A DNA stretch of 64,000 nt from Flavobacterium psychrotrophum (lineage in GTDB: Bacteria; Bacteroidota; Bacteroidia; Flavobacteriales; Flavobacteriaceae). Below are positions 7,323-58,836 of this stretch, piece by piece. Both the position numbers and the translations under genes were made by a program. The stretch is taken from contig NZ_CP031557.1 of the NCBI RefSeq assembly GCF_003403075.1, positions 2,914,001 to 2,978,000 of the forward strand, given 5' to 3'. The notes beneath the pieces are model-generated. The model was not told the DNA's origin and did no database searches. It saw only the letters and a program-made list of their open reading frames with translations. Every line of letters starts with the position of its first letter. The stretch's first letter is position 1.

Positions 7323-7335
7323 TTGTGTTAGTATA

Positions 7336-9393: not shown

Positions 9394-9418
9394 CAAAGAT
9401 AAAGGTTTTGTTGCGCAA
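9394..9418 (-). promoter_or_regulatory. Putative promoter of btuB leader
   Basis: The minus strand carries TATCTTTG at 9401-9394, a match to the Bacteroidota -7 consensus TAnnTTTG, with a TTG at 9418-9416. The spacing (14) is shorter than the usual 17-21, so the -33 half is weak. Transcription from here would begin just upstream of the riboswitch. Confidence 0.45.
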
Positions 9419-9435
9419 TTTAATTCATAACTTTG
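9405..9435 (+). promoter_or_regulatory. Putative promoter of btuFCD
   Basis: TTTTG ending at 9410 and TAACTTTG at 9428-9435 are 17 bases apart, a good fit to the Bacteroidota TTG/TAnnTTTG promoter. It lies 20 bp before btuF and overlaps the opposing btuB promoter, so the two transcripts diverge from about 40 bp of DNA. Confidence 0.55.
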
Positions 9436-9454
9436 CGGCAGCTGAATATTTTTT

Positions 9455-10591: not shown

Positions 10592-10596
10592 TATAC

Positions 10597-32701: not shown

Positions 32702-35700
32702 TTAATTACTTCTGTTTACATAAACCCATCCGGTTTTCGTTTCATTGTCCATGTTTATTACATAATAATAAGTACCTGTTGGCAATTCATCTCCCCCGTT
32801 AGTTTGTCCAAACCATTCATTAGAGTAGTCTGATCTTTTATAAACTTCAAGTCCGTAACGGTTAAATATCTCAATCTTTCTAACGTTAAGTCCTGTAAGA
32901 TCAAAACGGTCGTTCATATTATCATTATTTGGCGAAATACCTCTCGGAATATCACAGAAAACACCATCTACAGTAAAGCGATACGCATCAGTACATCCGC
33001 CTGAAGTACTTACTGTAAGTTCAAACACTAACGGATAATCTTCAGTCCTTATGTTATTACTCACACCATATTCTGTTACATTAAAAGTAGTATCACTTCC
33101 TAAAACGGTAGCCTGACCGGCAATTCTCCACTCAAATTGCACATTTGCCACATCAAAGCTATTATTTAAAGACATTCCTTCTAAAATATAGTTATTACCA
33201 TTAATTGTTGGCCTGCAACCCTGTGCACCTGTTAGCTGTGGCGCACCTGCTTGCGAGGTATTAATAATAACCGGTGGGCTTACTGATGTACAACCCTGAG
33301 TATTTTGTACTGTAATGGTGTAGCTACCTGCCGGAAGTGTAAAACTGGTTCCTGCCTGGAATGCACCTCCGTTTACACTATACTGGTATTCTGATCCTAA
33401 CGGAGCAGTAATGGTTAGTAATCCTGACAAAGAAGCACATGTAGCGTCAATAGTTGTTGCTGTTGCCGCTACTGGCGCTGGCACAGCCGGATTAACTACA
33501 TAAGGTAAACTTACAGAAGTACAGCCTTGGGCATTCTGTACCGTAACAATATGAGTTCCCGGATTAACAGAAAATATTGTACCCGACTGGAAGGCTCCAC
33601 CGTCTACACTATATTGATATTCTGCCCCTAATGGTGCCGTGATTATTAATGTACCAGATGTAGTGCCACATACAGGATCTACAGGGGTTGCAGTTGGAGA
33701 TAACGGTCCGGCCGGAGCAGGATTAATCACGTAAACAGGGCTAACCGAAGTACATCCCTGAGTATTCCTTACCGTAACAGTATAACTTCCCGAAGGAAGT
33801 GTAAATAATGTGCCTGACTGGAATGTAACGCCATCTACACTATACTCATATTGGGCACCCAGCGGGGCAGTTACTGTAAGTGTTCCCGTTGTTGACGCAC
33901 AGGTTAGAGGATTGGCAGGTACTGCCGTTGCAGCTATTGGCGCGGCCGGAGCAGGATTAATAACATATGGTGCACTAACTGATATACAGCCCTGTGTATT
34001 CCTTACCGTAATAGTATAACTTCCTGATGGCAGTGTAAACAATGTACCCGATTGGAATGCAACACCATCTATACTATATTCATATTGGGCACCCAGCGGG
34101 GCGGTTACCGTAAGTGTTCCCGTTGTTGATGCACAGGTTAGAGGGTCGGCAGGTACTGCTGTCGCAGCTATTGGCGCCGCCGGAGCAGGATTAATAACAT
34201 ATGGTGCACTAACTGATATACAGCCCTGAGTATTTCTTACCGTAACGGTATAACTTCCTGAAGGGAGTGTAAACAATGTACCCGATTGGAATGTAACGCC
34301 ATCTACACTATATTCATATTGGGCACCCAGCGGGGCGGTTACTGTAAGCGTTCCCGTTGTTGATGCACAGGTTAGAGGATCGGCAGGTACTGCTGTCGCA
34401 GCTATTGGCGCCGCCGGAGCATTGCCAATTGTATAAACCGGACTAACCGAAGTACAGCCCTGGGTATTCCTCACCGTAATGGTATAACTTCCTGATGGCA
34501 GTGTAAATAATATTCCTGGTTGGAATGTAACACCATCTATACTATATTCATATTGTGTACCAAGCGGGGCAGTTACTGTAAGTGTTCCCGTTGTTGATGC
34601 ACAGGTTAGAGGATCTGTAGGTAAAGCCGTTGCAGCTATTGGCGCAGCAGGAGCATTGCCAATTGTATAAACTTGGCTAACCGAAGTACAGCCCTGTGTA
34701 TTCCTTACCGTAATGGTATAACTTCCTGATGGCAGTGTAAACAATATTCCTGGTTGGAATGCAACGCCATCTACACTATATTCATATTGGGCACCCAGCG
34801 GGGCGGTTACTGTAAGTGTTCCTGTTGTTGACGCACAGGTTAGAGGATCTGTAGGTAAAGCCGTTGCAGCTATTGGCGTGGCCGGAGCAGGATTAATAAC
34901 ATATGGCGCACTAACTGATGTACAGCCCTGGGTATTCCTTACCGTAACGGTATAACTTCCTGATGGCAGTGTAAACAATGTACCCGATTGGAATGTAACA
35001 CCATCTATACTATATTCATATTGGGCACCCAGCGGGGCGGTTACTGTAAGTGTTCCCGTTGTTGATGCACAGGCTAGAGGATCTGTAGGCAAAGCCGTTG
35101 CAGCTACTGGCGCGGCTGGGGCATTGCCAATTGTATAAACCGGGCTAATCGAAGTACAGCCCTGTGTATTCCTTACCGTAACGGTATAACTTCCTGATGG
35201 CAGTGTAAACAATATTCCTGGTTGGAATGTAACACCATCTATACTATATTCATATTGGGCACCCAGCGGGGCAGTTACTGTAAGTGTTCCCGTTGTTGAC
35301 GTACAGGTTAGAGGATTTGCAGGTAGAGCTGTAACATTTACAGCCGGAGTCACCTCAAGCTGAGCAGCATTAGTAATTAAAGTACAACCGGGAGTGGTTA
35401 TAACACAATAGTATTGAGTGTCATCAAGATTAGACGTTACACTATTTACAGTAAGTATAGCAGTAGTAGCCCCGGAAAAATTGGCTCCTGTTACATTTAC
35501 CCACGCTCCGGAAACAAGCATTTTCCACTGATATGTAGCACCCTGAGCCGGTGCCACAACTGTAGAAAATGTAGCCTGCCCTCCGGCACATACTATATAA
35601 TCCTGAGGCTGTGTTATTACATCTACCACAGGACCTCCCGTAGCAGGTGGGCCGTTGGGCTCACCAAGGTCACTACAATTCATCCCAACAATATCCCAGT

Positions 35701-36487
35701 CAGCAGCCCTATAAGCTGTTGTAGGCGCCACAATACCTGTATTAGACTTACGCTTTACAGTATAACCTGCATTACTGGGTGCTTTAGAAATATCTATAAC
35801 CACACCATTCTTTTTTAGCCTGAATACATCATTACCATTTATACCAGACCCCATTGTTGCGTCGACACGTGCAGTACAACCCGGGTCGCCGCCATTATTA
35901 CGTGAAACTACATTATAAGTAGACTCTGGATCTATAGATCCCTGTAAAATAAGAGTATAATCCGGCACTAAAGCAGGATTAGTAAGATCTGTAAAATTAT
36001 CTCCAAAACGCTCTAGAACATACTCTCCATTGAAATCTATTGTAGTTGTAGAGGATGGATTAGTAAGCTCTATCATTCCATAACTTAGTGGTACATGGTC
36101 ATATAACTCTGATATATAAATCTCAGGGGTTATACAGGCAGAAGTCAGTACTGTAAATACACCTCCTGTTGCCACGCACCCATTTGTGGTAACCCTTATT
36201 GTACCGGTTGAAGCCCCGGCAGGAACCGCTGCCAAAATCTCTGAATCGGATACTACTGTATATCCGGGTGATTGTATTCCGTTAAAACGCACAGACGATG
36301 TGCCTATACCAAGATTGAAGCCTGAACCATTTATTGAAATGATTGTACCTACCGGTCCGCTAGAGGGAGTATAGGTGTTTACAAAAGTATTTGTACAGGG
36401 TTGTTGGGCTGTTGCAGTAATTGCAAAAAGCAAAAAAAAGACACACCACAGCTTTGAGAACGGCTGAAATAGTTTTTTACTTGTCAT
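32702..36487 (-). CDS. SprB-repeat surface protein with T9SS type B sorting domain
   Basis: This 1261-residue protein has the same plan as its left neighbour: signal peptide (to about residue 27), IPT/TIG domain (about 31-115; PVGTIISINGSGF), lamin-tail domain (about 119-270; IYISELYDHVPLSYGMIEL), Ig-like domain (about 290-380), nine SprB-type repeats (382-1079) and a type B T9SS C-terminus (GISPNNDNMNDRFDL). It is probably an outer-membrane-anchored adhesin. The two proteins are paralogues in tandem, but their repeat units differ in sequence, so each array was amplified separately. Confidence 0.9.
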   Translation of the reverse strand: MTSKKLFQPFSKLWCVFFLLFAITATAQQPCTNTFVNTYTPSSGPVGTIISINGSGFNLGIGTSSVRFNGIQSPGYTVVSDSEILAAVPAGASTGTIRVTTNGCVATGGVFTVLTSACITPEIYISELYDHVPLSYGMIELTNPSSTTTIDFNGEYVLERFGDNFTDLTNPALVPDYTLILQGSIDPESTYNVVSRNNGGDPGCTARVDATMGSGINGNDVFRLKKNGVVIDISKAPSNAGYTVKRKSNTGIVAPTTAYRAADWDIVGMNCSDLGEPNGPPATGGPVVDVITQPQDYIVCAGGQATFSTVVAPAQGATYQWKMLVSGAWVNVTGANFSGATTAILTVNSVTSNLDDTQYYCVITTPGCTLITNAAQLEVTPAVNVTALPANPLTCTSTTGTLTVTAPLGAQYEYSIDGVTFQPGILFTLPSGSYTVTVRNTQGCTSISPVYTIGNAPAAPVAATALPTDPLACASTTGTLTVTAPLGAQYEYSIDGVTFQSGTLFTLPSGSYTVTVRNTQGCTSVSAPYVINPAPATPIAATALPTDPLTCASTTGTLTVTAPLGAQYEYSVDGVAFQPGILFTLPSGSYTITVRNTQGCTSVSQVYTIGNAPAAPIAATALPTDPLTCASTTGTLTVTAPLGTQYEYSIDGVTFQPGILFTLPSGSYTITVRNTQGCTSVSPVYTIGNAPAAPIAATAVPADPLTCASTTGTLTVTAPLGAQYEYSVDGVTFQSGTLFTLPSGSYTVTVRNTQGCISVSAPYVINPAPAAPIAATAVPADPLTCASTTGTLTVTAPLGAQYEYSIDGVAFQSGTLFTLPSGSYTITVRNTQGCISVSAPYVINPAPAAPIAATAVPANPLTCASTTGTLTVTAPLGAQYEYSVDGVTFQSGTLFTLPSGSYTVTVRNTQGCTSVSPVYVINPAPAGPLSPTATPVDPVCGTTSGTLIITAPLGAEYQYSVDGGAFQSGTIFSVNPGTHIVTVQNAQGCTSVSLPYVVNPAVPAPVAATATTIDATCASLSGLLTITAPLGSEYQYSVNGGAFQAGTSFTLPAGSYTITVQNTQGCTSVSPPVIINTSQAGAPQLTGAQGCRPTINGNNYILEGMSLNNSFDVANVQFEWRIAGQATVLGSDTTFNVTEYGVSNNIRTEDYPLVFELTVSTSGGCTDAYRFTVDGVFCDIPRGISPNNDNMNDRFDLTGLNVRKIEIFNRYGLEVYKRSDYSNEWFGQTNGGDELPTGTYYYVINMDNETKTGWVYVNRSN
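33250..35345 (-). repeat. Array of nine SprB-like repeats within the gene
   Basis: Nine units of about 230 bp encode DPLTCASTTGTLTVTAPLG...YEYSIDGVTFQ...SYTVTVRNTQGC. Units 2-7 are nearly identical at DNA level, differing mainly at a few codons and in the ends TIGNAPA or VINPAPA; the last two units are more diverged. Confidence 0.85.
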
Positions 36488-36789: not shown

Positions 36790-36805
36790 AGTCGGGGTGG
36801 CAGGA
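36790..36805. repeat. Left attachment-site direct repeat
   Basis: AGTCGGGGTGGCAGGA is identical to 58760-58775, where it forms the 3' end of tRNA-Pro. The bases after it (CGATGCC) do not continue the tRNA, so this is the displaced copy created by integration, not a tRNA gene. Confidence 0.85.
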
Positions 36806-39868: not shown

Positions 39869-39895
39869 AGAAAGGCTGCCCTCGGCAGCCTTTCT
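39869..39895. terminator. Bidirectional terminator between Xre gene and GIY-YIG gene
   Basis: AGAAAGGCTGCC and GGCAGCCTTTCT pair perfectly around a 3-base loop, with T/A runs on both sides. It lies between two convergent genes and overlaps the last codon of the minus-strand gene. Confidence 0.85.
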
Positions 39896-41087
39896 ATTTT
39901 GATTTTAAGCAAAACATTTGTTCGTCATATTCGTAATTAACTATATCACCAGATAAAATAAGTTGGATTACCTTCTCTATTATTTCAATAGGAGCCACAA
40001 ACCATTCCCTTGGTGTATATCTTTTACCTTTGTCATCAAATAAATCCACGCTTAAACATACCTTACCAAAAAAGCGGTGTAATAGATTTTCAAATTTCTG
40101 AGGATTAAGATTATAACACTTGAAGGAACTTACCAAAACAACATCAGCCATTAAATAAGTCGGTTCTTTTGCCGCGTTCTTAATTCTTTCCTTTACATCA
40201 ATAGTTGAATAACCTATTTTATATAAATCTTGTAAAGGTGCAATTTGTGAATGGGTAGATTTTGATTTTAATATGTATATCCAGCCTGTTTGTAAATCTT
40301 CTTCATTTACCATATTGGCATTATTAAATAATGCATTTTCATCAGTATCACTGCTATGTGTCACTACTTTGCCATTATTATAAAGTTGCTTAGCTAAAGA
40401 CCTGTAAAGCATATTGCTTTCTGTGCCATTCTCAAATACACATCTGGTTCTTCCATCTTTTCTGATACGCTTACCTGTAGGCAACGTTTTATCTTCAGTT
40501 TCAATATCTACTTTTTCAAGTAAAAGCATTATCCCATCCATTACGTAAAAAGCTCCTTCTTGTAGATTATCTTCTTTAAATGCAACCAATTTTCGCTTAC
40601 CTTCTCTAAGGTCTTTATGTATGAGCTTGAACATCGGTTCATAAGGTTCAAATTCTTTCAAAGGTTTTCTGCGGGCCACATAGTCTGGGTCTTCTCTGTC
40701 TCTTAAGGTAACATTCGTGAGCTTAAAAATAGATAATGTTTCATCTGTATCTAAAATACCCAAATCATCATCCTGTAAAATATCTTCCACTGATTTAATC
40801 TCTTCTTTTACTATACCCAGCAAATTAAATTTATCATAAGGCTTTAAGAGACCCTTCTTTTTTTCATCATTTCTAAATGTTTTTAATCTTGAAAGAAGCT
40901 TAAATTCAGTGACATTTGTTGCCTGAGGTTCACGTCTGTTCTTATCGAAAAATGTATTAATTTCCTCAAAAGACTCTATTAGTCTTTCATCTTCAGTTTT
41001 CACATTAGATTGCTTAGGGGTACTATTTAATATCCCTAATTCATCATCGTCAAATATATCCTGTAATGTCTTTTTCTTATTATCCAT
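39894..41087 (-). CDS. GIY-YIG (T5orf172-like) nuclease-domain protein
   Basis: A 397-residue protein. The C-terminal 130 residues carry the GIY-YIG-superfamily pattern of T5orf172 proteins: GWIYILKS, then LYKIGYSTIDVKERI about 25 residues later, and a downstream NPQKFENLLHRFF helix supplying a Glu. The N-terminal part has two similar short motifs (DDDELGILNS and DDDLGILDTD), a small internal repeat, and a charged linker region. It overlaps the helicase end by 8 bp, so it is the last gene of the defence operon. It may be the cutting subunit for the methylase-helicase pair. Confidence 0.78.
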   Translation of the reverse strand: MDNKKKTLQDIFDDDELGILNSTPKQSNVKTEDERLIESFEEINTFFDKNRREPQATNVTEFKLLSRLKTFRNDEKKKGLLKPYDKFNLLGIVKEEIKSVEDILQDDDLGILDTDETLSIFKLTNVTLRDREDPDYVARRKPLKEFEPYEPMFKLIHKDLREGKRKLVAFKEDNLQEGAFYVMDGIMLLLEKVDIETEDKTLPTGKRIRKDGRTRCVFENGTESNMLYRSLAKQLYNNGKVVTHSSDTDENALFNNANMVNEEDLQTGWIYILKSKSTHSQIAPLQDLYKIGYSTIDVKERIKNAAKEPTYLMADVVLVSSFKCYNLNPQKFENLLHRFFGKVCLSVDLFDDKGKRYTPREWFVAPIEIIEKVIQLILSGDIVNYEYDEQMFCLKSK

Positions 41088-43016
41088 TTGCCATAGCTTT
41101 ACGCTTCTGCTCTTTTAAGAATATTATTGCTTCAGCTAATCTCCGTTCTTGAGGGTCAAAAGCCTGTATACTTGGCTGCTCACCTGTGCGTGAAATCCAG
41201 TTTTTTATTTTAGGCCACAAAATTATAGCTTCTTCTTCTGTCATTTGTATTCGCGTGGCATCTATTGTTTCTTGAATAGCCTTAAATATAGATGCTGTAA
41301 CAGATTTAGAAAGTATCTCAAATGCTTTTTGGAAAGGATTTATTTTATCTATGAGGTCAATATGTATATCATCAATATTTACAAAACTATCTGCCATCCT
41401 AATAAACCTCTTGTCTCCCTGCATTTCAATATGCCCATTTTTTATTACAGAGTCAATTACTACATGCTGACGTACTTCTTCAATTTCTTCATCAGTTAAG
41501 TCGGGATACGTCTCCTTTATTATTTTAGGTATAAGAACTTTATTTATCACTTCCGGATCGACATTCCCAGGCATAGCTTTAAGCATAGTGTCATCCTGCA
41601 ATATGGTAGCTTTTAAATCATTTATATCAGATTCAATAATTTCTTTAACCCTTGTTGAAGAAGGTTGTTTAAAACCATTTATCCTGATAGTATTTTCATC
41701 ATCTTCAGAAGTATCTTCTTCTTCATCAGGATATTTAGGTTTGAATTTAAAATTAGGGGCTAATACTTGTTCCATTAAAAGGGAAGCTGTAATGGCCTTC
41801 AGCATATTATTTACAGACAGTTTCACTTCGTCATTTTCAGCATCAGGCTGTGCAATGAGGTTAGTAAATTGAGCGTGGGACTTATTACTGCTGTCCCTCG
41901 TAGCCCTGCCAATAATCTGGATAATTTCAGTCAGTGATCCCCTATAACCTATAGTTAAAGCATGTTCGCAGAAAGGCCAGTCAAAGCCTTCTTTTGCCAT
42001 TCCTAAGGCAATTATGATATCAATGTCTTCGGGGCTATTTACATTTCTTAGATAAGCTTGAATTTTATCCCTTTCTTTTTGATTGTCGTTTACTAAATCA
42101 GCAACTTTTAATATTTTTCCTGTTGTTTTGCTTATAACGTGCATAACTCCAGTTTCAGGGTCTTGATAATCTAATTCCCCTAAACTGTCAATAATTCGGT
42201 TAACCTCTTCATATTTGTCCTTAGTAGATTCTCCCGCGTTTACATTAGGAATGTGAATAATAGTTTTCTTATTTTCATCCAAAATTTCATCAATGGCGGA
42301 AGTATATCTGCCTTGATAAAAGTGGTAGCCTATACCTAAAGATTTAAGATATTCGTAGCCATTAAGCTGCTCATAGTAGTTATAAGTAACTTTAGTAAAT
42401 TTTGCTTCATCTTCAGGTAGCAATACTGGTACACTATCACCCCTGAAGTACGAACCTGTCATAGCCACTACGTGGGCTGTAGAGTTTGACATTACTGACC
42501 TTAAAACTTCACCTAACCTGTTATCGCCATCTGCGGATATATGGTGAAACTCATCTATTGCCAGTACTACCTCATTAAAGGCTTTTTCGTCAACTGCCTC
42601 AAAGGCAAACCTTAATGTGGCGTGAGTGCAAATAAGTATTTGTTCATCACTATTCAAAAAGTTCAAAAAAGAAGTAACCTTACTTTTATCGCCTCCGGGG
42701 TGCAAAGATTATATTTTGGATTAGGATTCCAGTTTGCAAAGAATCCATATTTAGATAATTCGGTTTTGCCAAAAGAAGCACCTATAGACCTTTCAGGTAC
42801 AGCAACAATGACTTTTTTAAGCCCTTGATGTACCAATTTATCTAAACCAATGAACATCAATGCTCTCGATTTACCTGAGGCTGGTGGAGCTTTAATTAGC
42901 AGATATTGAGCGGTACGGGCTTCGAATGCACGAGCCTGCATCTCTCTCATTCCAAATTCATTTGTGCTTTTACTTTTACCTGTTTGGTTATATTGAACAT
43001 GAACTATATTTGGCAT
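41080..43016 (-). pseudogene. SF2 DEAD/DEAH-like helicase, split by a one-base frameshift
   Basis: Two overlapping frames make one helicase. The first (43016 to 42663) carries Walker A PPASGKS near residues 45-51 and ends out of frame; the second (TTG 42705 to 41080) continues with the DEFHH Walker B box, TGSYF motif III region and QIIGRATRDS motif VI. The text reads smoothly if one base is added in the CCCC run near 42697-42700 (CTP joining GGDKSKV). It may be a true mutation, a reversible slip or a sequence error. Intact, the about 645-residue protein would be the motor between the methylase and the GIY-YIG nuclease. Confidence 0.82.
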
Positions 43017-43022
43017 CGTATT

Positions 43023-45731
43023 TTATTTTTTAGTCTTTTTTTTCTTTGTAGAAACAACATTTTCATTTGTCATTTCCTCATACAATTTAAACAAATATTC
43101 TAAACGTTCATTATCACTTACAAAAGGCTTTAACCTATAACATCTTTCTATAGCAAGATCCATCTCATGATGTGCGTCCTTTAATGATTTAGGCATTTTA
43201 ATAGGGTCATACAATTGAGATAAATTCTTTTCAGGATATTTTTCTCTTTCTTCTAGTACACTAAATAAATGTAAATTGATGTTTTCAATCTCCTTTGCGG
43301 AAATTTTTGGTAACGGAAATGTATTGTAACAAATGGAAGAAGAATATCTTATGTCTTCTCTTAATCTTCCGGCTACTGCCTTTACCCACGCCATATGCAT
43401 TCTTGACGTAATTACACCAAAAACCCAAGTTTCGCAATCATAAATTATTTGAGCAGAATTTGGAACAATCTCATGAGGATTTATAAAACCACATGGAATA
43501 TATTTCCTCCGTTGAGAAGAAACTACTGGCACAATAACTGATTGATTGGATGTCTCATAAAACTCTCTGAATTGATGAGATTTATTTGCAATTTTATTTT
43601 GTCCAGCATCGGTACTTTTTAAACGCTCTTCTCTTACCTGTGCAACTCTATCTTCTATAACTTTATATTGCTTCGCTTCATACAATTCGCTATCAGTTAT
43701 CCAAAAACAATACCTTTTTTCATTCTTAATAAATTCGGAAGAGCCAATCAAAGGTCTAATAAATTTTTCTATGCCTGTATTTTCTGAAACTATTTTATCT
43801 TTTTCAATGGAGTTAAGAATTAATGCAGAGCAGCAGCCTGTATAATTTCCTCTCATCATTTCAGGTAATCCACTAATTGATGAACTTAAACCATTTATGT
43901 ATATAGTTTTTGCAGGAGCTAAATATGGATTAATTTCTTTTACTTCAGATACTATATTTGATTCGGAAAAAAGAAGTTTTCCCGAGTTTGACTTATTTGC
44001 TACTCCTATTATTACACAAGTTACACCCGCGCTGCCTTTAGCATTATTTCCCCATTTGAATGATTCATAAGCAAAATTAATTTCTAATTTATCATTTAGA
44101 ACTAAAGGCCACAAAATTGGAACCTGTTCTCCTTGACAGATAGAATTAGTTGTAACGAAAGCATATTTCGATTTTGTTTCTATTATATACTGTGAGGCGA
44201 GCAAAAACCAACACGAAATATAATCTAATTTTCCATATTTTCGAATCATTGAAAACACCGCTTTCATCTCCTTTTTCTGCTGGGCATCTTGGTTGCGAGT
44301 TCCTAAATAGGGTGGATTACCTAAAATATATACTTCATCATTATCATTTTTGGGACATATAGTTTGCCAGTCAATTCTTGTAGCATTCCCGCACGTAATA
44401 TGTCCCGCTTCTTTAAGAGGTAAAATAGGTTTAGCTCTACCGTAATCAAATAATTCATTTATGAAAACTTTGTTCATTTGGTGTTCAGCGAGCCATAATG
44501 ATAGTAATGCCATTTCATGGGCAAAGTCATCTAATTCAATCCCATAAAACTGGGATAGTTTAATATCAGTATATACAGTTTCCGTTTGATAAGATTTACC
44601 TTGTTTTTTTAGAAAGTCAATCTGTTTCCAAATTTCGATTTCTAAGTTCCGTAGTTCTTTGTATGCTATAATTAAGAAATTTCCACTACCACAAGCTGGG
44701 TCAAATATTTTTACCTTTCCTATCCTGTTTATAAGCCTTCTTAAAGCCCTTTCATTATCTCTGTTTTTTTCCAGTTCCTCTTTTAAGTCATTTAAAAACA
44801 ATGGCTCAATTACTTTCATTATATTAGGAACAGAAGTATAGTGCATACCTAAACCACTACGATACTCAGGATTAACTACTGCCTGTATCATTGAGCCAAA
44901 AATGTCAGGATTAATTTCACTCCAATTAAGTTCCCCACACTCAATAATAATTTTTCGGGCTTTCTTAGAAAACTTCGGTGCGTAAATGGTATCACGAAAT
45001 AACCCTCCATTCACATAAGGGAATTTTTGAAGGTAAGCTGCTTCTTTACTATTGTCTTCAGTATTTAAAACATGAAAGAGTTTGTTTAAAAACTCATGTA
45101 CATCACTTCCATCATCTTTGGTGTGCTGTACGAGTGTAGATGTAAATATGCCCTCCTCAGGGAATATATCTGTATCTTCAGCAAAAAAACAGAATAACAG
45201 TCTCGAAAGGAAAATATTTAAATTATGGCCTCCATCGTCATAAATACCTGAGTTTTCATGCACGAGAATATCGTATAGTTTAGCCATCTCATAGGAGGCT
45301 TTTCTGTCAGCGTAATTTTCATTCGTATGCTGATATTTTTCCTGTCCTGCCCAAGGTAAGAAGAAATCGAAATGCCTTGATACCTCTAAGATAGGAGTAT
45401 CTAAGGTAAGCCCTTTTCTAGTATCTTTAGCTAATAAAGTCTTGTAATCGGTTACAATTACAAATCTCGGGTTATGCTTTAATGCACCTTCATCTTTAGT
45501 AATCTCGTCAATAGTTATTAACAACTTGTCCGAATCAACCTCTTTAAATAGTACTTTCTTTTTATATAAAACCTCGCCCGGAATTTTAGACATATTAAAA
45601 TCACCAGTACGTAATCTGGTTATCGATGTCTTAGAAATACCATAGGCCAATAATAAATCGTATATGAAATTATCCTTGTTAAAATTCGTAACAAGTGATT
45701 TTACATTTTTTTCAATTTGGGTTGAGTTCAT
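43023..45731 (-). CDS. MmeI-like class I DNA adenine methyltransferase
   Basis: The 902-residue protein has an N-terminal region (1-150), a helical spacer like MmeI_hel (about 150-300; FLSRLLFCFFAEDTDIF), SAM-binding motif I DPACGSGNFL near 345-354, catalytic NPPY (ILGNPPYLG) near 473, and a C-terminal target-recognition and helical tail (about 620-870). This is the layout of type IIL enzymes such as MmeI, which methylate adenine, but I see no clear PD-(D/E)xK site at the N-terminus. It starts 43 bp after the DUF262 gene and ends 6 bp before the helicase. Confidence 0.85.
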   Translation of the reverse strand: MNSTQIEKNVKSLVTNFNKDNFIYDLLLAYGISKTSITRLRTGDFNMSKIPGEVLYKKKVLFKEVDSDKLLITIDEITKDEGALKHNPRFVIVTDYKTLLAKDTRKGLTLDTPILEVSRHFDFFLPWAGQEKYQHTNENYADRKASYEMAKLYDILVHENSGIYDDGGHNLNIFLSRLLFCFFAEDTDIFPEEGIFTSTLVQHTKDDGSDVHEFLNKLFHVLNTEDNSKEAAYLQKFPYVNGGLFRDTIYAPKFSKKARKIIIECGELNWSEINPDIFGSMIQAVVNPEYRSGLGMHYTSVPNIMKVIEPLFLNDLKEELEKNRDNERALRRLINRIGKVKIFDPACGSGNFLIIAYKELRNLEIEIWKQIDFLKKQGKSYQTETVYTDIKLSQFYGIELDDFAHEMALLSLWLAEHQMNKVFINELFDYGRAKPILPLKEAGHITCGNATRIDWQTICPKNDNDEVYILGNPPYLGTRNQDAQQKKEMKAVFSMIRKYGKLDYISCWFLLASQYIIETKSKYAFVTTNSICQGEQVPILWPLVLNDKLEINFAYESFKWGNNAKGSAGVTCVIIGVANKSNSGKLLFSESNIVSEVKEINPYLAPAKTIYINGLSSSISGLPEMMRGNYTGCCSALILNSIEKDKIVSENTGIEKFIRPLIGSSEFIKNEKRYCFWITDSELYEAKQYKVIEDRVAQVREERLKSTDAGQNKIANKSHQFREFYETSNQSVIVPVVSSQRRKYIPCGFINPHEIVPNSAQIIYDCETWVFGVITSRMHMAWVKAVAGRLREDIRYSSSICYNTFPLPKISAKEIENINLHLFSVLEEREKYPEKNLSQLYDPIKMPKSLKDAHHEMDLAIERCYRLKPFVSDNERLEYLFKLYEEMTNENVVSTKKKKTKK

Positions 45732-45774
45732 GTGTAAGAGAAAATATTTATAAAGTGCTTAAGACCAGATTTAA

Positions 45775-47511
45775 TTAGCTGTTTAAATATTCTTCTAAAG
45801 TTGGTATTAAATAACTTTTATCAATGTTGTCAAAACTCCATTTTCGCATAGCAAAATTAGATAAATGTTTGTGTCGCTTTTCAATTGATGTTATTTTCCA
45901 AGTATAATTAACTTCGGTTGATTCCGCAAATTCTCTTATTTCAGCTTGTTGATTCAATAATGGGTTTGAATTATATGATGCAATCTTTTCACTAAAAGGC
46001 CTATTACCAATAGATGAATTATGTGAACCCGAGATTAACATTAGATTCCCTAAAGAATTTAAATGTAGATTGACGAATTCTTCAGAATATGAAGAGTTTT
46101 CATCTACCTCATATCCGCTCTTTATATGGTCTCCATTAGTAGGGGTTTGTGGGGAAATATGCTCTATTTGCTCATTTTCTAATGAAAACTTTCTGATATT
46201 ATAACCTTTATTTTGAATTGAAGATTCGTATTCCCATAATAAGTAATGCAATATGCTATTTCCATAAATAGCTCCATTTAAATAATGTTTTGTTTGTATA
46301 TCTCCCCAATACCAAGATTCATTCAATTTATTCTTGATATCGTTTATTAAATCTAATAGGTTACCATCAAATTTAAGCAATATACTATTTAACCTTTCTT
46401 GAATATTCGCTCGACTGTTAATTAATTTCGTTCTAAAGGTTACTATTTCAAGGACGTTAAATAAAGTATTCATTCTTCTATCATCTGAGCCAAAAGATTT
46501 GTATCCTTTAATGATAAATGGATATATAAATGCTGGAATTTTTAAGGACTTAAGTTTCTCAGCATATAATATTTGGGTTCTTTCAAACTTTTTAAGATTA
46601 GAAAAGGTTGTATGAAGTTCGTTAATGTAAGTTTTAATCCACTCAACCTTATTATTAGATTGCTTGAACAAATGCTTTACATCATTTAAACTTCTATAAT
46701 TGTAACCATTCACATAGGCGTTATTGTGATAAAGCAATACGCTGTCTTCATTTAATTTAAGGTCATTTATTAAAAGATATATTGACTTGAAAATATTAGA
46801 AATATTTTCAATATTAGATTCAATTTCCTCTGGCTCACTGTAAACATACATTTGATACATAAAATAAGATTTTATCTTTTCCATGTTTGTCAAATCTTTG
46901 CCTCTATTATTTTCCAATTCAAACATTAATGCTGAATCCTTCTTGCCATCAAGTTCAATAACTGTTAATTCAGTCCCCTGTATTTTCTCAAGGATTTTTA
47001 AAATTATATCTGTAGATAATTTGTCAAGTTCTTCACTAAAGAAATCTTTAGCAGATTTAATTCTTATTTGTGATTGTGAATGCATTTCAAAATTATCATT
47101 GTTATCTATAATGATTGCATCATAACAAGCTCTGTCATATTCAACTGGGCGTAATTTTATATTGCCTTCATTTTTCAAATAAATATGCTTTAATAAGACT
47201 GGGTCAAATTCTTGAATTAAGTCCACACTACGCTTTCCAAGTACATTTATAATTGAACGTATAAATATTGTAAGAGTAGTGATTCTCTGTTGTCCATCTA
47301 TTATTTCGTATTTTACATCCTTTTTTATGGTTTCTAAGAGGATATTACCATAGAAATAATTGTTTTGTCCTTCAATTTGTTCTAAAAGGTCATTCAAAAA
47401 AGTTCTCCATTCAGATTTATCCCAAGAGTATGCCCTTTGATAAACAGGTATTACAAAATGCTTTTGAGAACTGTCAAATAGGCCTAATGTTGTTTTATTG
47501 TAAAAATGCAT
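45775..47511 (-). CDS. GmrSD-like DUF262/DUF1524 protein (type IV restriction-like)
   Basis: A 578-residue protein with DUF262 (ParB-like fold) motifs IPVYQRAYSW (21-30) and DGQQRITT (72-79), and a C-terminal DUF1524 region with an HNH-like EHISPQ near residue 449 and a GNLMLISGSHNSSIGN near 490. GmrSD fusions cut DNA with modified cytosines in an NTP-dependent way. It lies upstream of the methylase gene in the same direction, and could be an independent type IV enzyme or a part of the same defence operon. Confidence 0.85.
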   Translation of the reverse strand: MHFYNKTTLGLFDSSQKHFVIPVYQRAYSWDKSEWRTFLNDLLEQIEGQNNYFYGNILLETIKKDVKYEIIDGQQRITTLTIFIRSIINVLGKRSVDLIQEFDPVLLKHIYLKNEGNIKLRPVEYDRACYDAIIIDNNDNFEMHSQSQIRIKSAKDFFSEELDKLSTDIILKILEKIQGTELTVIELDGKKDSALMFELENNRGKDLTNMEKIKSYFMYQMYVYSEPEEIESNIENISNIFKSIYLLINDLKLNEDSVLLYHNNAYVNGYNYRSLNDVKHLFKQSNNKVEWIKTYINELHTTFSNLKKFERTQILYAEKLKSLKIPAFIYPFIIKGYKSFGSDDRRMNTLFNVLEIVTFRTKLINSRANIQERLNSILLKFDGNLLDLINDIKNKLNESWYWGDIQTKHYLNGAIYGNSILHYLLWEYESSIQNKGYNIRKFSLENEQIEHISPQTPTNGDHIKSGYEVDENSSYSEEFVNLHLNSLGNLMLISGSHNSSIGNRPFSEKIASYNSNPLLNQQAEIREFAESTEVNYTWKITSIEKRHKHLSNFAMRKWSFDNIDKSYLIPTLEEYLNS

Positions 47512-47579: not shown

Positions 47580-48575
47580 TTAGCCTCTTTTTTCTATTTC
47601 TTTTTTAAGTTCCTCAATTAGTTGTTGTTCAGTTGGTAGGTAAAGTTTATACTCGCTTGCAATGATGGTTTTATTATCTTCCGGTAAAGAAATTTTTACT
47701 ACTGCATTGTTTTTTTCGGCACACAGTAGAATCCCTATTGTAGATTTCTCAAAATCCTGTTTTTCATATCGGTCATAGTAATTGACATACATTTGTAATT
47801 GCCCGACATCTTGGTGGGTAAGCTTGTGTGTTTTTATCTCGATGATTACAAAACATTGCAATAGGCGGTTATAGAAAACAAGGTCTATGAAAAACTCATC
47901 TCCTTCGATGTGAAGCCTCTTCTGCCGAGCAACAAATGCAAAGCCATTTCCAAGTTCAAGTAGAAAATCGTGTAGATGAGTTATAATAGCCTGCTCTAAA
48001 TCTTTCTCGTAATACGATGCTTCCCTGTGCAATCCTAAAAATTCAAGATACATTGGGTCTTTTATTATTTCCTTCGCATCTGAAGGATGTTTTTCGTTAC
48101 GCGCTACTGCTAATACACTTTCCTTATCGTTGCTTAAAAGTAAACGCTCCCAAAGACTGCTATGTATCTGCCTTTCTAACTGGCGTGTGGTCCAATTGTT
48201 TTTAATTGCTTCTGCTATATAAAATTCTCTTTTATCTTCGTTATCAAGACGTAAAAGCATTTTATAATGTGTCCAGCCCAATTGCGAACGCACTGCGTTC
48301 GCAATTGGAAAAGTTCTGTAAAATTGTCGAAAGAGTTCTATCTGCCTTTTAGAAAAACCACTCCCAAATTCCGGTTCTAATTCCTCTGATATTAATTTCG
48401 TGAGATAATTACCATAATCTGCACGGTCTTTTCCCTGTTGTTCTTCTTCAAAAATACGTCTGCCAATCTGCCAATACATTAGTGTGCGCTCGTGGTCTAC
48501 CGCACGTATGGCCTTTTCCTTAGAGGAAACGATGATAGCTTTAATATCTTGTATTAAGGATTGGTCTAAAATCAT
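47580..48575 (-). CDS. DUF1016/YhcG-family PD-(D/E)xK nuclease
   Basis: A 331-residue protein with an N-terminal DUF1016_N helical domain (about 1-170; YGNYLTKLISEELEPEFG; SQLGWTHYKMLLRL) and a C-terminal nuclease core with FFIDLVFYN followed by VIIEIKTHKL (the D and ExK of the fold, about residues 225-250). The family is widespread near restriction systems and on mobile elements; its exact substrate is not settled. I start at ATG 48575; the frame extends 25 residues upstream, but the longer start has a poorer N-terminus. Confidence 0.85.
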   Translation of the reverse strand: MILDQSLIQDIKAIIVSSKEKAIRAVDHERTLMYWQIGRRIFEEEQQGKDRADYGNYLTKLISEELEPEFGSGFSKRQIELFRQFYRTFPIANAVRSQLGWTHYKMLLRLDNEDKREFYIAEAIKNNWTTRQLERQIHSSLWERLLLSNDKESVLAVARNEKHPSDAKEIIKDPMYLEFLGLHREASYYEKDLEQAIITHLHDFLLELGNGFAFVARQKRLHIEGDEFFIDLVFYNRLLQCFVIIEIKTHKLTHQDVGQLQMYVNYYDRYEKQDFEKSTIGILLCAEKNNAVVKISLPEDNKTIIASEYKLYLPTEQQLIEELKKEIEKRG

Positions 48576-48653
48576 GTGATAATTATAAGAGTGTAAATTT
48601 ACAAAAGTATTAGATGATGATTGCTGACAAGGGTTAAAAGCTCTATTCAATTC

Positions 48654-49224: not shown

Positions 49225-50229
49225 TTAGTGTCTCATACCTGGCTTCCTTTTCTTTTTAGGTTGTCGGATTAGTTCAGGATCTCTATAATCTGAAGTATAT
49301 TCAGGAGTCAATAGTTGCCCTAAAAGCCCTGTGATTTGTTTTTCAACCGATTCAAAAGAAGTTTCGTGGTTAAACTGCTGACTTTTCGCTGATTTAAAGT
49401 TATTGGTACGGGTGGCGCTATCATCTAAACGTTCATTCTTTTGGCTCGCCCGTTTCGCGTCAAGCTGCTGCTGTAAGCTTAATATCCTTTCAATCTTGGT
49501 CAGAGAAAAACCAACCTCACTACCTTTAAACTTTACTTTTTTATCATCCACAAAGGATATACCTCTTCCTTTTAAAATTTTATATCCTAAACCTTTCATC
49601 TGCTTTTCAAAGGCCGGGTAGCTACTGGTTTGTTTTAAAGTTTGCTGTATATCCGCTTTCAGTTTTTCTTTCCGGCTGTCGTGTCTGGGCAGTTGCCTGT
49701 CCGTTGCTGATAGGAATTTCCTAGGGCTTAATACTTGCTGCAAGCCGCATTGCTTTTCAAGCTTCCGGCAGAGTTCTGCCATCCGCTTATAACTGTTGCT
49801 GTCTGTAGCTACCTTTCCATCAAAGCCTACCCGGTTGGCAGCAACATGGATATGCTGCTCTTTGGTATCCTTGTGTAGTACGCAGATGTATTGATGGTCG
49901 GCTACGCCAAACGCTTTAGCACAAGCCCTGCCCATGTCGGTTAGTTGCGCCTTGGTCAATTGTTCTCCCGGTGCCAACCGTAAAGACAAATGCAGCATTG
50001 TTTTTTCAATACGGCTACTTAGCTTGCTTACATCTTTGAACTGCTCGGTGAGTTCATATTTGTTGCCAAAGCATTTGTTGTATTCCAGTACCTCCGCACG
50101 CTCGCTGTGCTGCAAATGGTCGCTTGCAGCAAGCGCTAATTTCTTTTCTTCAGATAGTTCTTTTTTATCTTCCAGTACATAACTGAGCAGGTGATAAATT
50201 GAAGCCCCTATGGACACATGCCCAATCAT
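49225..50229 (-). CDS. Relaxase (MobA/MobP-type mobilization nuclease)
   Basis: A 334-residue relaxase: HLSLRLAPGEQL near residues 80-91 and the metal-binding three-His region HIHVAANRVGF (H126, H128, N132). It nicks the origin of transfer and stays linked to the strand during conjugation driven by a helper plasmid or element. Its start overlaps the mobC stop by 4 bp (ATGA). The length is typical of the short relaxases on Bacteroidota mobilizable elements. Confidence 0.92.
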   Translation of the reverse strand: MIGHVSIGASIYHLLSYVLEDKKELSEEKKLALAASDHLQHSERAEVLEYNKCFGNKYELTEQFKDVSKLSSRIEKTMLHLSLRLAPGEQLTKAQLTDMGRACAKAFGVADHQYICVLHKDTKEQHIHVAANRVGFDGKVATDSNSYKRMAELCRKLEKQCGLQQVLSPRKFLSATDRQLPRHDSRKEKLKADIQQTLKQTSSYPAFEKQMKGLGYKILKGRGISFVDDKKVKFKGSEVGFSLTKIERILSLQQQLDAKRASQKNERLDDSATRTNNFKSAKSQQFNHETSFESVEKQITGLLGQLLTPEYTSDYRDPELIRQPKKKRKPGMRH

Positions 50230-50609
50230 AAGAGGTAGTTTTTTATTTGCTGGGCAAGCTCTTTCACTTGGCCGGACTGTACTTTGAGTTCTGCCCGTTC
50301 CAACGGGTTAAGCTCGTCATTGCTGTTGCGTTTTTTTGCAATCTGGTTCAGGTTTGCAGCCATGTGGTTTAGCGTTGCGGTAAAGCTTAAAACTTCTTTT
50401 GGCAAGGCTTTATTCCTGAAATTAATTTTTGAAGTCAGCCCAAGTTCACGCAGGTATTCTGATATGGTAAGTTTTGCTTTTCTTGCTTTGGCTTCAATAG
50501 CCTTACGCTCAAAGAGTGTACACTTGATTGCCATTACCTGGTTCCTTTTAATCTCTTTGGGAGGCCTGCCGCCTTTATTCTTATTGTTGTCATTCACTCC
50601 TTCCATCAT
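50226..50609 (-). CDS. MobC-like relaxosome accessory protein
   Basis: A 127-residue basic protein: a lysine/arginine-rich tail (NKGGRPPKEIKRNQ), a ribbon-helix-helix-like segment (MAIKCTLFERKAIEAKA) and a MobC helix (LNHMAANLNQIAKKRN). It would bind near the origin of transfer and assist the relaxase encoded directly downstream. Confidence 0.9.
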   Translation of the reverse strand: MMEGVNDNNKNKGGRPPKEIKRNQVMAIKCTLFERKAIEAKARKAKLTISEYLRELGLTSKINFRNKALPKEVLSFTATLNHMAANLNQIAKKRNSNDELNPLERAELKVQSGQVKELAQQIKNYLL

Positions 50610-50729: not shown

Positions 50730-51665
50730 TCATATAGACCTTCCATGCTTTTTAACTGGTTTAATTGTTTCAGGCTGCTTTAGCCAGTCGTTCAAATCCT
50801 TATGATTTTTGTATAGTATACTTTGGTCTGTAAACTTTTCAGGGTTCCTTTCCAAAGCTTCTTTAGTGAGTTTCATACCTGCCTCATCCCTGTCAAGGTA
50901 GAGGTTAACACGTTCATGCTTCTCCATAAGCTCCCAGGACTTTTGAAAAAAGGCAAGGGAGTTTAATACTATAAAATTTGGTGGCGGTTCAGCTGCTTTT
51001 TGGGTTATCGCTTTATATGACAGAAAGTCGAAAAAGCCTTCAAAGACATTTAGGGATTTTGACCCGACATCTATGAAGCTTACGGCCTTTGGCGAACTGC
51101 TACCTTTAAAATATTCGCTCCTTAGTTCATACCCTCCTGTATCATTTTTAAATCCGATAGCAGTCTGCTTTTTACCGTACAACGTAAAGTCAACTTCATG
51201 GCAATATTGCCTGGCAACCTCCAATGGGATATTCCGTTTTTCCAAATAGTTCATCAAGCGACTATCCGAAATAACCCTGCTATCTGTAACCAATATTTTG
51301 GCCTCACTATCCTTCTTTTTTTCACCGGCAGAAATGCTATTGGAACTATTCGATAGCTTCGGTTTCTCCTGCTGTTGAAAAAGAAAGGTTTCGGCATTAC
51401 CAGTCGATAACTTTTGCAGTAGTTCACTTGTGGTACAACGGAAGTATTCCTTTCCAAAATCGATCAGGTCACCGCCCTTGCCCATCCCGTGGTCGTACCA
51501 AACATTTAGCTTCCGGTTGACTTTAAAAGAAGCGGTCTGTTCGTTTCGTAAAGGGGATTGATACCAATAATCTGCGTTTCTGATTTTTGACGGTTCATAT
51601 CCGAGCGAAGCGAGGAAATCCACAAGGTCAATCTGTTTTGCTGTGGCACAGGTTAGCTTATCCAT
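50730..51665 (-). CDS. Toprim-domain primase-like protein
   Basis: A 311-residue protein of the mobile-element primase type. The N-terminal part resembles the CHC2 fold (WYQSPLRNEQTASFKVN; GMGKGGDLIDFG) but lacks the zinc cysteines. The C-terminal Toprim core has VFEGFFDFLSY with its Glu near residue 210 and the DxD-like LYLDRDEAG near 256. It probably helps element DNA replication after transfer. Confidence 0.85.
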   Translation of the reverse strand: MDKLTCATAKQIDLVDFLASLGYEPSKIRNADYWYQSPLRNEQTASFKVNRKLNVWYDHGMGKGGDLIDFGKEYFRCTTSELLQKLSTGNAETFLFQQQEKPKLSNSSNSISAGEKKKDSEAKILVTDSRVISDSRLMNYLEKRNIPLEVARQYCHEVDFTLYGKKQTAIGFKNDTGGYELRSEYFKGSSSPKAVSFIDVGSKSLNVFEGFFDFLSYKAITQKAAEPPPNFIVLNSLAFFQKSWELMEKHERVNLYLDRDEAGMKLTKEALERNPEKFTDQSILYKNHKDLNDWLKQPETIKPVKKHGRSI

Positions 51666-52375: not shown

Positions 52376-53101
52376 CTATTTTTGAAAAGTAAAATCAAAA
52401 AGCATATGGTGTATTTTAAATTCTGTGCTTAGACGTAAGTGTAGGCTGTCAAAAGTAAATGGATTTTCTTCTATTGAATTATCCTTCGTACTAATTAAAT
52501 CGCCCTCGGGAGAAATCAAAAATTTATCACTTAACTTTTTCAGAATTGCAGTTTTTATGTTATAGCCGTCGCCATCTATAATAAAGCCAATCATTCCGCC
52601 AAAGGTTAGATTTTGAGCATACTTCCCATTGAAATAGCGTAAAACTCCACCATCAAAGATATTTTCATCATTAGCGTCTTTCTTATAGGTATTGTAATAA
52701 ACATACTTATCTACCAAATCTTTACTACCATCTAAATTTTTGCATTCAAAATAGAAATCTTGATTTTTCCAATATGTATTATGAATGGTAATATCATAAT
52801 TACCTTCTACATCCTCATCATTTGTTTCTTCTCCCTTTACAGAAAAATTAAAACCAAACTCTCTGTTTGCTTTCAATTTCAGGCGTACAAATTTTGCTAT
52901 TTCCCTTTCAGTTCTTGGATATTGCTTTTTCTTTTCTTCTTCTATTTTAGACTTTAATTCAACACTATCATAGTTGTTATAGAAATCAAGCAAATAATAA
53001 AACACCCATTTTTTCCAAAACTCATCATCTAAGGTCTTTAGTTGGCGAGTATCGAATGGTAATGGTGCTGGCTTCTTAATCCTAATGTATTCCCTCTCCA
53101 T
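52376..53101 (-). CDS. Probable PD-(D/E)xK endonuclease partner of the adjacent methylase
   Basis: A 241-residue soluble protein. A helical N-terminus (to about 95) precedes a core with NYDITIHN (D103) and, 15 residues on, DFYFECKNL (E119-C-K121), which fits a PD-(D/E)xK nuclease active site. Its start overlaps the end of the large methylase gene by 20 bp, so the two are co-translated. It is probably the cutting subunit of a two-gene restriction system. The assignment rests on the motif and the context; I do not recognise the family. Confidence 0.68.
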   Translation of the reverse strand: MEREYIRIKKPAPLPFDTRQLKTLDDEFWKKWVFYYLLDFYNNYDSVELKSKIEEEKKKQYPRTEREIAKFVRLKLKANREFGFNFSVKGEETNDEDVEGNYDITIHNTYWKNQDFYFECKNLDGSKDLVDKYVYYNTYKKDANDENIFDGGVLRYFNGKYAQNLTFGGMIGFIIDGDGYNIKTAILKKLSDKFLISPEGDLISTKDNSIEENPFTFDSLHLRLSTEFKIHHMLFDFTFQK

Positions 53102-57225: not shown

Positions 57226-58521
57226 CTATCCTAAAGCGACGTTCAGCCGTTCCTGTAGCCTTCCCATATCTTCACTCAATTTACTTTCAACAACCTTGGC
57301 ATAAATCTGGGTAGTTCGGATACTGGTATGGCCAAGCATCTTGGAAACACTTTCAATCGGAACACCATTACTCAGGGTAACGGTTGTTGCAAATGTATGG
57401 CGGGCGATATGGAACGTTAGCGTTTTAGTTATACCACATACATCTGCAATCTCTTTTAGGTAACCATTCATACGCTGGTTAGAAATAACAGGGAATACAG
57501 TACTGCTGTATTGTGCCCGTGGGTCATCTTTGTATTTGTCGACTAATACTTTTGCCTGTGGTAACAGCGGTACACGGACACTTGTGTCTGTTTTAACCCT
57601 GCTGGTTGACAACCAAAGCCCGCCATCAATGCCTTTGATGATATTTTCTTTGGTGAGTTGTGTCATGTCGATGTACGCAAGTCCGGTATAGCAACTAAAC
57701 AGAAACATATCACGAACGTGCTCCAAACGGTCAATTTTAAATTCCTTGTTCGCAAGGCTTGCGAGTTCTTCCGTATTCAGGCACTGGCGTTCCACTTTAT
57801 CAAAGTGCTTTTTAAAACTGGCAAAAGGGTCTTTAGGAAGCCAGTCTAAAGTGATGGCAAGGTTTACCATTTTGCGCAGCCTTTCAATATGCTTCATAAT
57901 ACCATTGTTGTTAAGGGGCTTTTGGTGGTCTTGGGGTACATAGTTAGCAAGATAGCTCTCAAAGTCCATTACAAAGCGGTAATTGAGTTCTGCAAGGGCA
58001 ATATCATTCCTCTTGTACTTATCCTTCAGGAACTTTTCAATATACCTTTGGGTAGTAATATAATTCTTCATCGTGCCGGACGCAAGTTTATGGGCTGCCT
58101 CCTGATTGTGGTAGGCTATGAGTTTACCAAGTGTCATGGCTTCTTCATCACCACCGACAAACAAAGATTTTACTGCATCTACAGTTACAGTTTTGCGTTG
58201 TTGTACCAAATCGTTATAGCCATCGGCTATTATGGTGCGCACGCGCTCAATATGGCTATTAAGTTTTACAATTTCCTCACGCTTGCCCTTTGCACGCCCC
58301 TTTACATCATCCCAGTCTTTAGGCTGAATCTTTTGTTTAAGGGAGATTTCAGACCTTCTTCCATTTACCGTTATGCGGGCATACACGGTCGCTTTTTCAT
58401 TCTTTTGCTGCTTGGGCATCCTGATAACAAACTGGATACCAAATGTGTTTTTGCTTTTCATACCAAATACATTTTGGGTTAAACTGATACATTTTGCCCG
58501 AACCTGCTCAAAAGTGCTCAC
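57226..58521 (-). CDS. Tyrosine recombinase (integrase) of the IntDOT-like group
   Basis: A 431-residue integrase: arm-type domain (about 1-130), SAM-like core-binding domain (about 135-235) and catalytic domain with HIARHTFATT near 372, LGHTSIRTTQIY with the nucleophilic Tyr near 405. The first catalytic box reads CYTGLAYIDM where most relatives have TGLRxxE, so the box I Arg is missing, as in the Bacteroides integrase IntDOT. It is 240 bp from tRNA-Pro and faces away from it, and would catalyse insertion and excision between the two 16-bp repeats. Confidence 0.95.
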   Translation of the reverse strand: MSTFEQVRAKCISLTQNVFGMKSKNTFGIQFVIRMPKQQKNEKATVYARITVNGRRSEISLKQKIQPKDWDDVKGRAKGKREEIVKLNSHIERVRTIIADGYNDLVQQRKTVTVDAVKSLFVGGDEEAMTLGKLIAYHNQEAAHKLASGTMKNYITTQRYIEKFLKDKYKRNDIALAELNYRFVMDFESYLANYVPQDHQKPLNNNGIMKHIERLRKMVNLAITLDWLPKDPFASFKKHFDKVERQCLNTEELASLANKEFKIDRLEHVRDMFLFSCYTGLAYIDMTQLTKENIIKGIDGGLWLSTSRVKTDTSVRVPLLPQAKVLVDKYKDDPRAQYSSTVFPVISNQRMNGYLKEIADVCGITKTLTFHIARHTFATTVTLSNGVPIESVSKMLGHTSIRTTQIYAKVVESKLSEDMGRLQERLNVALG

Positions 58522-58759: not shown

Positions 58760-58775
58760 AGTCGGGGTGGCAGGA
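58760..58775. repeat. Right attachment-site direct repeat (tRNA-Pro 3' end)
   Basis: AGTCGGGGTGGCAGGA is identical to 36790-36805. Here it forms the 3' acceptor end of the working tRNA-Pro gene, so integration kept the tRNA intact. Confidence 0.85.
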
Positions 58776-58836
58776 TTCGAACCTGCGACCTCCTCGTCCC
58801 AAACGAGGCGCGATGACCGGGCTACGCTACACCCCG
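58762..58836 (-). tRNA. tRNA-Pro (anticodon TGG)
   Basis: The 75-nt minus-strand sequence folds as a tRNA: acceptor CGGGGTG / CACCCCG, discriminator A, T-loop GGTTCGAATCC, and anticodon stem-loop CTCGTTTGGGACGAG with anticodon TGG. No CCA is encoded. It lies 8 bp downstream of tRNA-Ser and is the integration target of the element. Confidence 0.95.

Follow-up and report, generated by a model that had tools for sequence, protein, structure and literature searches.

A probable DnmA-YeeB-YeeC restriction-modification set with a broken motor gene on a mobilizable element of Flavobacterium psychrotrophum, beside a GmrSD-type gene

Background

Does a closely packed run of genes for a DUF262 protein, an MmeI-like methylase, a superfamily 2 (SF2) helicase and a GIY-YIG nuclease in Flavobacterium psychrotrophum encode one restriction machine, as an original prediction from the bare sequence had proposed, or more than one system? 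The run lies in a 64,000-nucleotide stretch of contig NZ_CP031557.1 (positions 2,914,001 to 2,978,000), hereafter the window. The answer that we regard as quite probable is that the locus holds a DnmA-YeeB-YeeC restriction-modification (R-M) set with a broken motor, which is carried by a mobilizable element next to genes for a type IV enzyme of the GmrSD type and for a DUF1016 protein. The genes concerned follow one another on the minus strand in this order (aa, amino acids):

47580..48650, minus strand: DUF1016/YhcG PD-(D/E)xK protein, a neighbour outside the core, 68 bp upstream of the GmrSD gene (Pfam)
45775..47511, minus strand: single-chain GmrSD-type (DUF262 + DUF1524) putative type IV restriction enzyme (Pfam, PADLOC, motifs)
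43023..45731, minus strand: MmeI-like N6-adenine DNA methyltransferase of the DnmA type with its own target recognition domain (TRD), 902 aa (Pfam, PADLOC)
42663..43016, minus strand: N-terminal piece of a YeeB-type SF2 helicase, 117 aa, with Walker A PPASGKSRAL (open reading frame, conserved residues)
41080..42705, minus strand: C-terminal piece of the SF2 helicase, 541 aa from TTG, with DEFHH and presumed motifs V and VI (Helicase_C)
39894..41087, minus strand: YeeC-type GIY-YIG (T5orf172/MUG113) nuclease, 397 aa (Pfam, conserved residues)

The positions of the open reading frames (ORFs) and Pfam bear out the single direction of the four genes and their close junctions, which measure 43 bp between the GmrSD and methylase genes and 6 bp between the methylase and helicase genes, with an 8-bp overlap between the helicase and GIY-YIG genes. 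GmrSD_N and GmrSD_C, five MmeI domains (MmeI_N, MmeI_hel, MmeI_Mtase, MmeI_TRD and MmeI_C), Helicase_C, MUG113 and T5orf172 all scored above the Pfam cut-off, and DEAD fell below it in the helicase region (19 of 26 bits; E=0.0012, N-terminal piece). The run does not open at the DUF262 gene, since the DUF1016/YhcG gene, a small gene, a relaxase gene and a NikA-like gene precede it on the same strand. The SF2 helicase region is indeed present, but it is divided between two ORFs in different frames, a break that the original prediction had overlooked.

The three downstream genes belong to the DnmA-YeeB-YeeC cluster

The methylase-helicase-GIY-YIG trio is the already published DnmA-YeeB-YeeC cluster, the Bacillus subtilis proteins entering this comparison by their description only. 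According to the accessible parts of two reports (PMC7261158, PMC9973331), DnmA is homologous to MmeI but lacks the nuclease motif, and its gene is followed by those of a helicase and then of a T5orf172/GIY-YIG protein, an order conserved in other species; in B. subtilis DnmA makes N6-methyladenine at GACGAG. The window shows the same three parts in the same order and with the same domains, namely an MmeI-type methylase devoid of an N-terminal nuclease motif, a YeeB-type helicase encoded next downstream and a third protein with a C-terminal T5orf172/GIY-YIG domain, and they likewise lie in a low-GC region with mobility genes. It differs from the B. subtilis locus in its broken helicase frame, in the GmrSD and DUF1016 genes upstream and in its Bacteroidota host.

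The methylase found its best PADLOC model in REase_MTase_IIG (E=4.3e-294), with the PglX, DrmMI (best 5.5e-38) and mad2 models matching far below this. Its alignment with the MmeI structure 5hr4 begins only at chain residue 105. The ExK of the MmeI nuclease motif is absent from the methylase columns that at least 97% of 79 relatives share, and no nuclease motif was seen in the N-terminal domain. Only 2 of 160 conserved methylase columns are substituted in the window protein. The GIY-YIG protein retains the conserved residues G268, Y271, K290, G292, R301, E333 and H337, with none of 34 conserved columns substituted, and the C-terminal helicase piece is up to 97% identical to relatives, one of which, among those listed, is named 'putative ATP-dependent helicase YeeB' at its source (F. 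psychrophilum).

A protein search with the 541-aa piece recovered at least 8000 relatives, and most of the 120 listed were 641-651 aa long. In a scan of genome contigs, with one genome per species, at least 590 stretches matched and at least 584 encode a relative; the best 80, drawn from many phyla, were kept. Genomes of the same genus or phylum supplied another 33 stretches, and removal of 6 duplicates left 107 distinct loci. The GIY-YIG gene follows the helicase gene in all 107, with a gap of at most 150 bp in 105. A methylase gene was found in 92 loci, of which 91 have it upstream and on the same strand, the exception (L052) having it on the other side. As to the state of the genes, 99 loci have an intact GIY-YIG gene, 2 have it at a contig edge and 6 have it on the list of broken genes. 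The corresponding figures for the methylase gene are 79, 8 and 5, and it was not found in the other 15 loci, 8 of which have less than 0.4 kb of upstream sequence; in a further six (L029, L041, L047, L050, L056 and L075) there are 1.2-2.4 kb without a methylase, a length at which true absence looks the same as an insertion between the methylase and helicase genes. The last (L150) lacks a methylase gene despite 9.7 kb of upstream sequence. The claim that a restriction set is laid out here on separate chains, with GIY-YIG in place of PD-(D/E)xK, is thus upheld by synteny for three of the genes; that the system is under-described is right insofar as it is little studied, although it has been published (PMC7261158, PMC9973331, as far as accessible).

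Pfam analysis of the flanking ORFs (E<=1e-4) in the best 80 loci revealed no conserved partner beyond the core: the commonest family accounts for at most 3 of 127 upstream ORFs (51 loci; the 127 within 3 kb, of 149 in all) and at most 4 of 133 downstream ORFs (60 loci; 133 of the 134 within 2.5 kb, of 176 in all, one very long ORF of L048 being omitted). At E<=1e-60 a scan of 398 genomes of the genus and 395 of the phylum found the helicase in 27 and 9 of them, respectively, the window genome included. Three helicase-bearing genomes (G048, G712 and G387) offered short stretches only and are not among the 107 loci: that of G387 has the GIY-YIG gene, that of G048 has part of it at the contig end and that of G712 ends inside the helicase gene. 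Two loci merit separate mention. In L150 (genome G331, 6001-13162) genes for an AlbA_2 protein and a HerA/DUF87 ATPase precede the helicase and GIY-YIG genes, a possible partner swap. Another genome (G558) carries two copies of the cluster (L127 and L146), one of which lies on a 32-kb contig and has breaks in each of the three genes; in the other copy the GIY-YIG match is in two pieces.

The motor gene is interrupted in the assembly

Either the motor gene is truly broken or the assembly misreads it. The helicase region (43016-41080) consists of two ORFs in different frames, 43016-42663 and 42705-41080, which overlap by 43 nucleotides, the second opening at TTG. Walker A stands on the 117-aa piece; the 541-aa piece bears DEFHH and what we take to be motifs III, V and VI. 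Relatives encode a helicase of about 645 aa in a single frame: of the 107 loci 100 have the gene open in one frame, 4 have it running off a contig and 3 carry a broken copy. The window locus lacks this single open frame, which we take as the mark of an active set. Because the shift of frame falls between the regions of Walker A and Walker B, the gene is not expected to yield a functional motor.

Profile searches with the helicase pieces additionally gave weak matches to PbeA (1.6e-9), HamB (0.0083) and dnd_restrict_1 (4.4e-5, far under its cut-off), all of which we took as general SF2 similarity. A fold search with the model of a relative's intact helicase (mean pLDDT 72) recovered SF2 helicases, including HsdR of EcoR124I, and yielded no closer assignment than this class.

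A cargo slot in the relatives

In relatives the junction of the methylase and helicase genes is a cargo slot, a feature that we describe here as new. Among the 91 loci with both genes in order (L052 excluded), the space is closed (<=100 bp) in 39 and filled (>300 bp) in 52; the window's own slot, at 6 bp, is closed. The slot ORFs considered number 81, from 49 loci (84 minus four short ones plus one RhuM ORF of L043), and their Pfam families comprise HATPase_c_4 (18), RhuM (12), SLFN_AlbA_2 (10, a count lowered by the ORF caller, which cut some starts), Fic (5), AAA_21 (5), Bro-N (4), AAA_13 (3) and DUF1016 (1). AAA_13 is presumably the ATPase type of RloC. The RhuM, Fic/Doc and PrrC/RloC families have been found beside R-M genes, according to the accessible part of PMC3710099. 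A literature search that combined slot and core families turned up only the two DnmA papers (PMC7261158, PMC9973331), neither of which mentions RhuM.

A twin acidic motif in the GIY-YIG nuclease family

A second new feature is a twin acidic LG(I/L)L motif of the YeeC family. In the window protein it reads DDELGIL near residue 15 (about 11-20) and DDDLGIL near residue 107 (about 103-112), both in low-confidence stretches of the model (pLDDT about 41-61) that flank a confident helical part. Our first, strict pattern occurs twice in only 3 of 55 family members. A looser form is present at least twice within the first 150 residues of 43 of the 55, versus 0.02% of shuffled sequences, and 41 combine a copy within the first 40 residues with one at 92-150; this form also matches near residue 85 of the window protein and at 60-91 in 14 of the 55. 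The pair may perhaps be a bivalent docking motif.

Alternative explanations

The DUF262 gene had been proposed to encode a part of the same machine as the other three. Its product has both GmrSD domains on one chain (Pfam), matches Orf5/HEC-06 in PADLOC and contains VYQRAY, IIDGQQR and FELEN, which correspond to the QR, DGQQR and FxxxN motifs that define GmrSD enzymes in the accessible text of PMC11411939. It thereby resembles the type IV GmrSD, BrxU and HEC-06 proteins, being 60% identical to its best relative in the genus, from a genome (G057) without a helicase match. A single four-gene machine would accord with the shared strand and the 43-bp gap, as well as with one locus from F. xueshanense (L060, 12857-15361) in which a GmrSD gene, there fused to DUF4268 and the sole one among the 107 loci, comes directly after the GIY-YIG gene. 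That is nevertheless 1 of 107 loci, whereas a DUF262 gene occurs in 8 of the 40 hsdR-like loci examined from the genus (profile search; Fisher p=1.2e-4). The profile was built from the proteins of the window, L060, L120 and L124, so that the L060 match arises by construction; the 40 stretches are the top 45 PF18766 places minus five (in G044, G016, G508, G014 and G494), with HsdR status assigned from domain and ORF length. In seven of the eight the DUF262 gene lies upstream of hsdR on the same strand, and in L166 it lies outside. Across the genus a DUF262 relative occurs in 6 of 398 genomes (E<=1e-60), versus 27 for the helicase; only the window genome and G047, the latter on different contigs, have both, and over the 397 other genomes the co-occurrence does not exceed chance (hypergeometric p=0.29). 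GmrSD-family genes, RloF being one, are reported to be frequent in or near type I loci, their characterised members being type IV enzymes (PMC4619093, PMC11411939, in the parts available), and BrxU/HEC-06-type enzymes function independently (PMC11411939, same limit). We reject the four-gene machine on co-occurrence and consider it very improbable. Because the GmrSD gene is rare at the relatives' loci, shows little co-occurrence in the genus and belongs to a type IV family described elsewhere, it is best read as an independent neighbour of the DnmA-YeeB-YeeC cluster. Counting co-occurrence has separated the genes: synteny over 107 loci supports three as one named set, and only the fourth falls to a different named system. 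The DUF1016 gene, too, has a relative in only 3 of 107 loci (4 of 80 by tblastn).

If the frame change is no sequencing error, the three remaining genes probably sustain methylation without restriction. The strongest competitor, which we hold to be a real though lesser possibility, is indeed that sequencing or assembly error split the helicase gene and that the set is whole and active. Neither piece has a conserved residue substituted (none of 210 columns that reach at least 97% conservation among the 100 intact relatives), which implies that the frame change is either recent or an error; in the latter case the three-gene system may be whole. Occasional lesions in the relatives' assemblies (helicase 3, GIY-YIG 6 and methylase 5 of 107, from an automatic list of broken genes that includes doubtful cases with long frames, such as L151 and L022) are in keeping with this, whereas the genome is a single contig scored 99.97% complete and its other long ORFs in the window look unbroken by eye. 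Programmed frameshifting, which would yield the full helicase and set the dose of the motor, could draw on the 43-nucleotide overlap and the TTG start. The single open frame of 100 relatives shows that it is not conserved and rules it out as a general feature, no standard slippery heptamer was recognised by eye at the junction, and we give it hardly any credence. A further reading, which we judge unlikely, takes the methylase as an orphan that is retained to regulate genes as the motor and nuclease decay. It has been argued for B. subtilis in PMC9973331, and the type I-like system of that species may, according to PMC7261158, be inactive, inefficient or noncanonical (both as accessible); the window, moreover, combines a broken motor with an unbroken methylase. 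Against it, the motor is intact in 100 and the nuclease in 99 of 107 relatives' loci, so selection seems to keep all three parts and a general relic is unlikely.

Further observations weigh against our preferred reading, that of an R-M set with a broken motor. In B. subtilis deletion of dnmA left the uptake of unmethylated plasmid unchanged, deletions of dnmA, yeeB or yeeC left sensitivity to three phages unchanged, and GACGAG is not avoided by phages (PMC7261158, PMC9973331, accessible parts); active restriction is therefore not shown for the best-studied member. No solved structure matched the GIY-YIG protein in sequence at E<=1, Foldseek with its model returned nothing at E<=0.001, and the best sequence match of the helicase among solved structures had E=0.028. 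As to the slot, relatives of some slot ORF (blastp E<=1e-10) occur in 10 of the 40 hsdR-like same-genus loci, RhuM in 2 of them (L186 and L189; 72% and 76% identity), so that the cargo pools overlap, modestly. The other cases are an AlbA_2-type relative (L169, 46%), relatives of one short L149 slot ORF (L171 and L178) and of the L040 DUF1016 slot ORF (L165 and L173), and weaker ones (L162, L185 and L191). On the other side, deleting the dnmA or yeeB homologues of Vibrio crassostreae raised sensitivity to some phages (PMC9973331, citing Piel et al., as far as accessible). The literature searched, in its accessible parts, gave no biochemical mechanism for DnmA-YeeB-YeeC.

Comparison with other systems and functional implications

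Like type I R-M systems (HsdRMS), the set has separate methylase and motor proteins, an expected N6-adenine chemistry and, in relatives, slot cargo of the RhuM, Fic and RloC-type ATPase kinds. It departs from them in having no HsdS, the specificity domain being inside the methylase, and in that the nuclease is a separate GIY-YIG protein unfused to the motor; Pfam listed neither Methylase_S nor HSDR_N for the five ORFs concerned. The methylase shares the methylase-plus-TRD architecture of the type IIL enzyme MmeI (5hr4). Unlike type IIL MmeI and type ISP enzymes, its chain has no nuclease motif, and motor and nuclease are extra genes. CglI also keeps a helicase-like ATPase and a nuclease on separate chains, but there the R.CglI-H.CglI complex is the site-specific endonuclease (PMC5737866, as accessible), whereas here the recognition domain is expected in the MmeI-like adenine methylase. 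BREX and DISARM were considered and set aside, there being no PglZ, BrxC or DrmA/DrmB partner among the PADLOC families listed for 10 proteins of the area, at most 25 for each.

Gene content, gene order, conservation, the frame break of this assembly and the rarity of DUF262 beside relatives are direct observations, and the enzymatic roles are what we infer from them. In intact relatives the MmeI-like subunit would recognise a site of asymmetric sequence and place a methyl group on a single adenine there. Where this mark is missing, it would recruit the SF2 motor, with cleavage falling to the GIY-YIG subunit, so that labour would be divided in a type I-like manner. In the window locus the methylase would still mark the chromosome, with restriction presumably switched off, and the GmrSD enzyme would act alone on phage DNA with modified bases. 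More tentatively, and with less confidence than in the reading favoured above, DnmA-YeeB-YeeC might be a full counterpart of type I systems built on an MmeI-type methylase, with one recognition and methylation chain, a motor, a GIY-YIG cutter and a slot for guard genes (RhuM, Fic, Schlafen/AlbA_2, RloC-like). Blockage of the enzyme would then trigger the cargo, the twin acidic motifs would dock the cutter to two motors or methylases, and the window copy would be a natural methylation-only variant.

Although the three-gene set is found widely, its best-studied member seems to be inactive; the guard-type cargo slot turns type I-like working into a testable claim, and intact members are available for such tests. 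The four-gene run of the window, rightly noticed as unusual, is a known set with one gene broken, beside an unrelated enzyme.

The mobilizable element and other genes of the window

Sixteen base pairs from the 3' end of tRNA-Pro are directly repeated at 36790 and 58760, and the two copies bound a 22-kb element with the genes discussed above and the following features:

36790..36805, no strand: putative left attachment repeat, 16 bp identical to the tRNA-Pro 3' end (repeat match)
49225..50229, minus strand: MobA/VirD2-type relaxase (PF03432, E=9.4e-32)
50226..50609, minus strand: NikA-like mobilization protein (PF21983)
50730..51665, minus strand: CHC2/Toprim primase-like protein (domain scan)
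57226..58521, minus strand: tyrosine integrase (Phage_integrase, Phage_int_SAM_5, Arm-DNA-bind_5)
58760..58775, no strand: putative right attachment repeat, at the 3' end of tRNA-Pro (58761-58836) (repeat match)

The element also encodes a helix-turn-helix protein. The ORFs scanned included no recognisable conjugation apparatus, no systematic search being aimed at one. The same element carries a second methylase gene (53082-56111; N6_Mtase and TaqI_C, type IIG-like, 1009 aa), which overlaps a gene for a 241-aa protein (52376-53101) without a family match, perhaps the nuclease of this second methylase. Just outside the element, at 32702-36487, lies a gene for a 1261-aa protein composed of many near-identical modules (TVTAPLGAQYEYSIDGV...), which looks like a repetitive surface protein.

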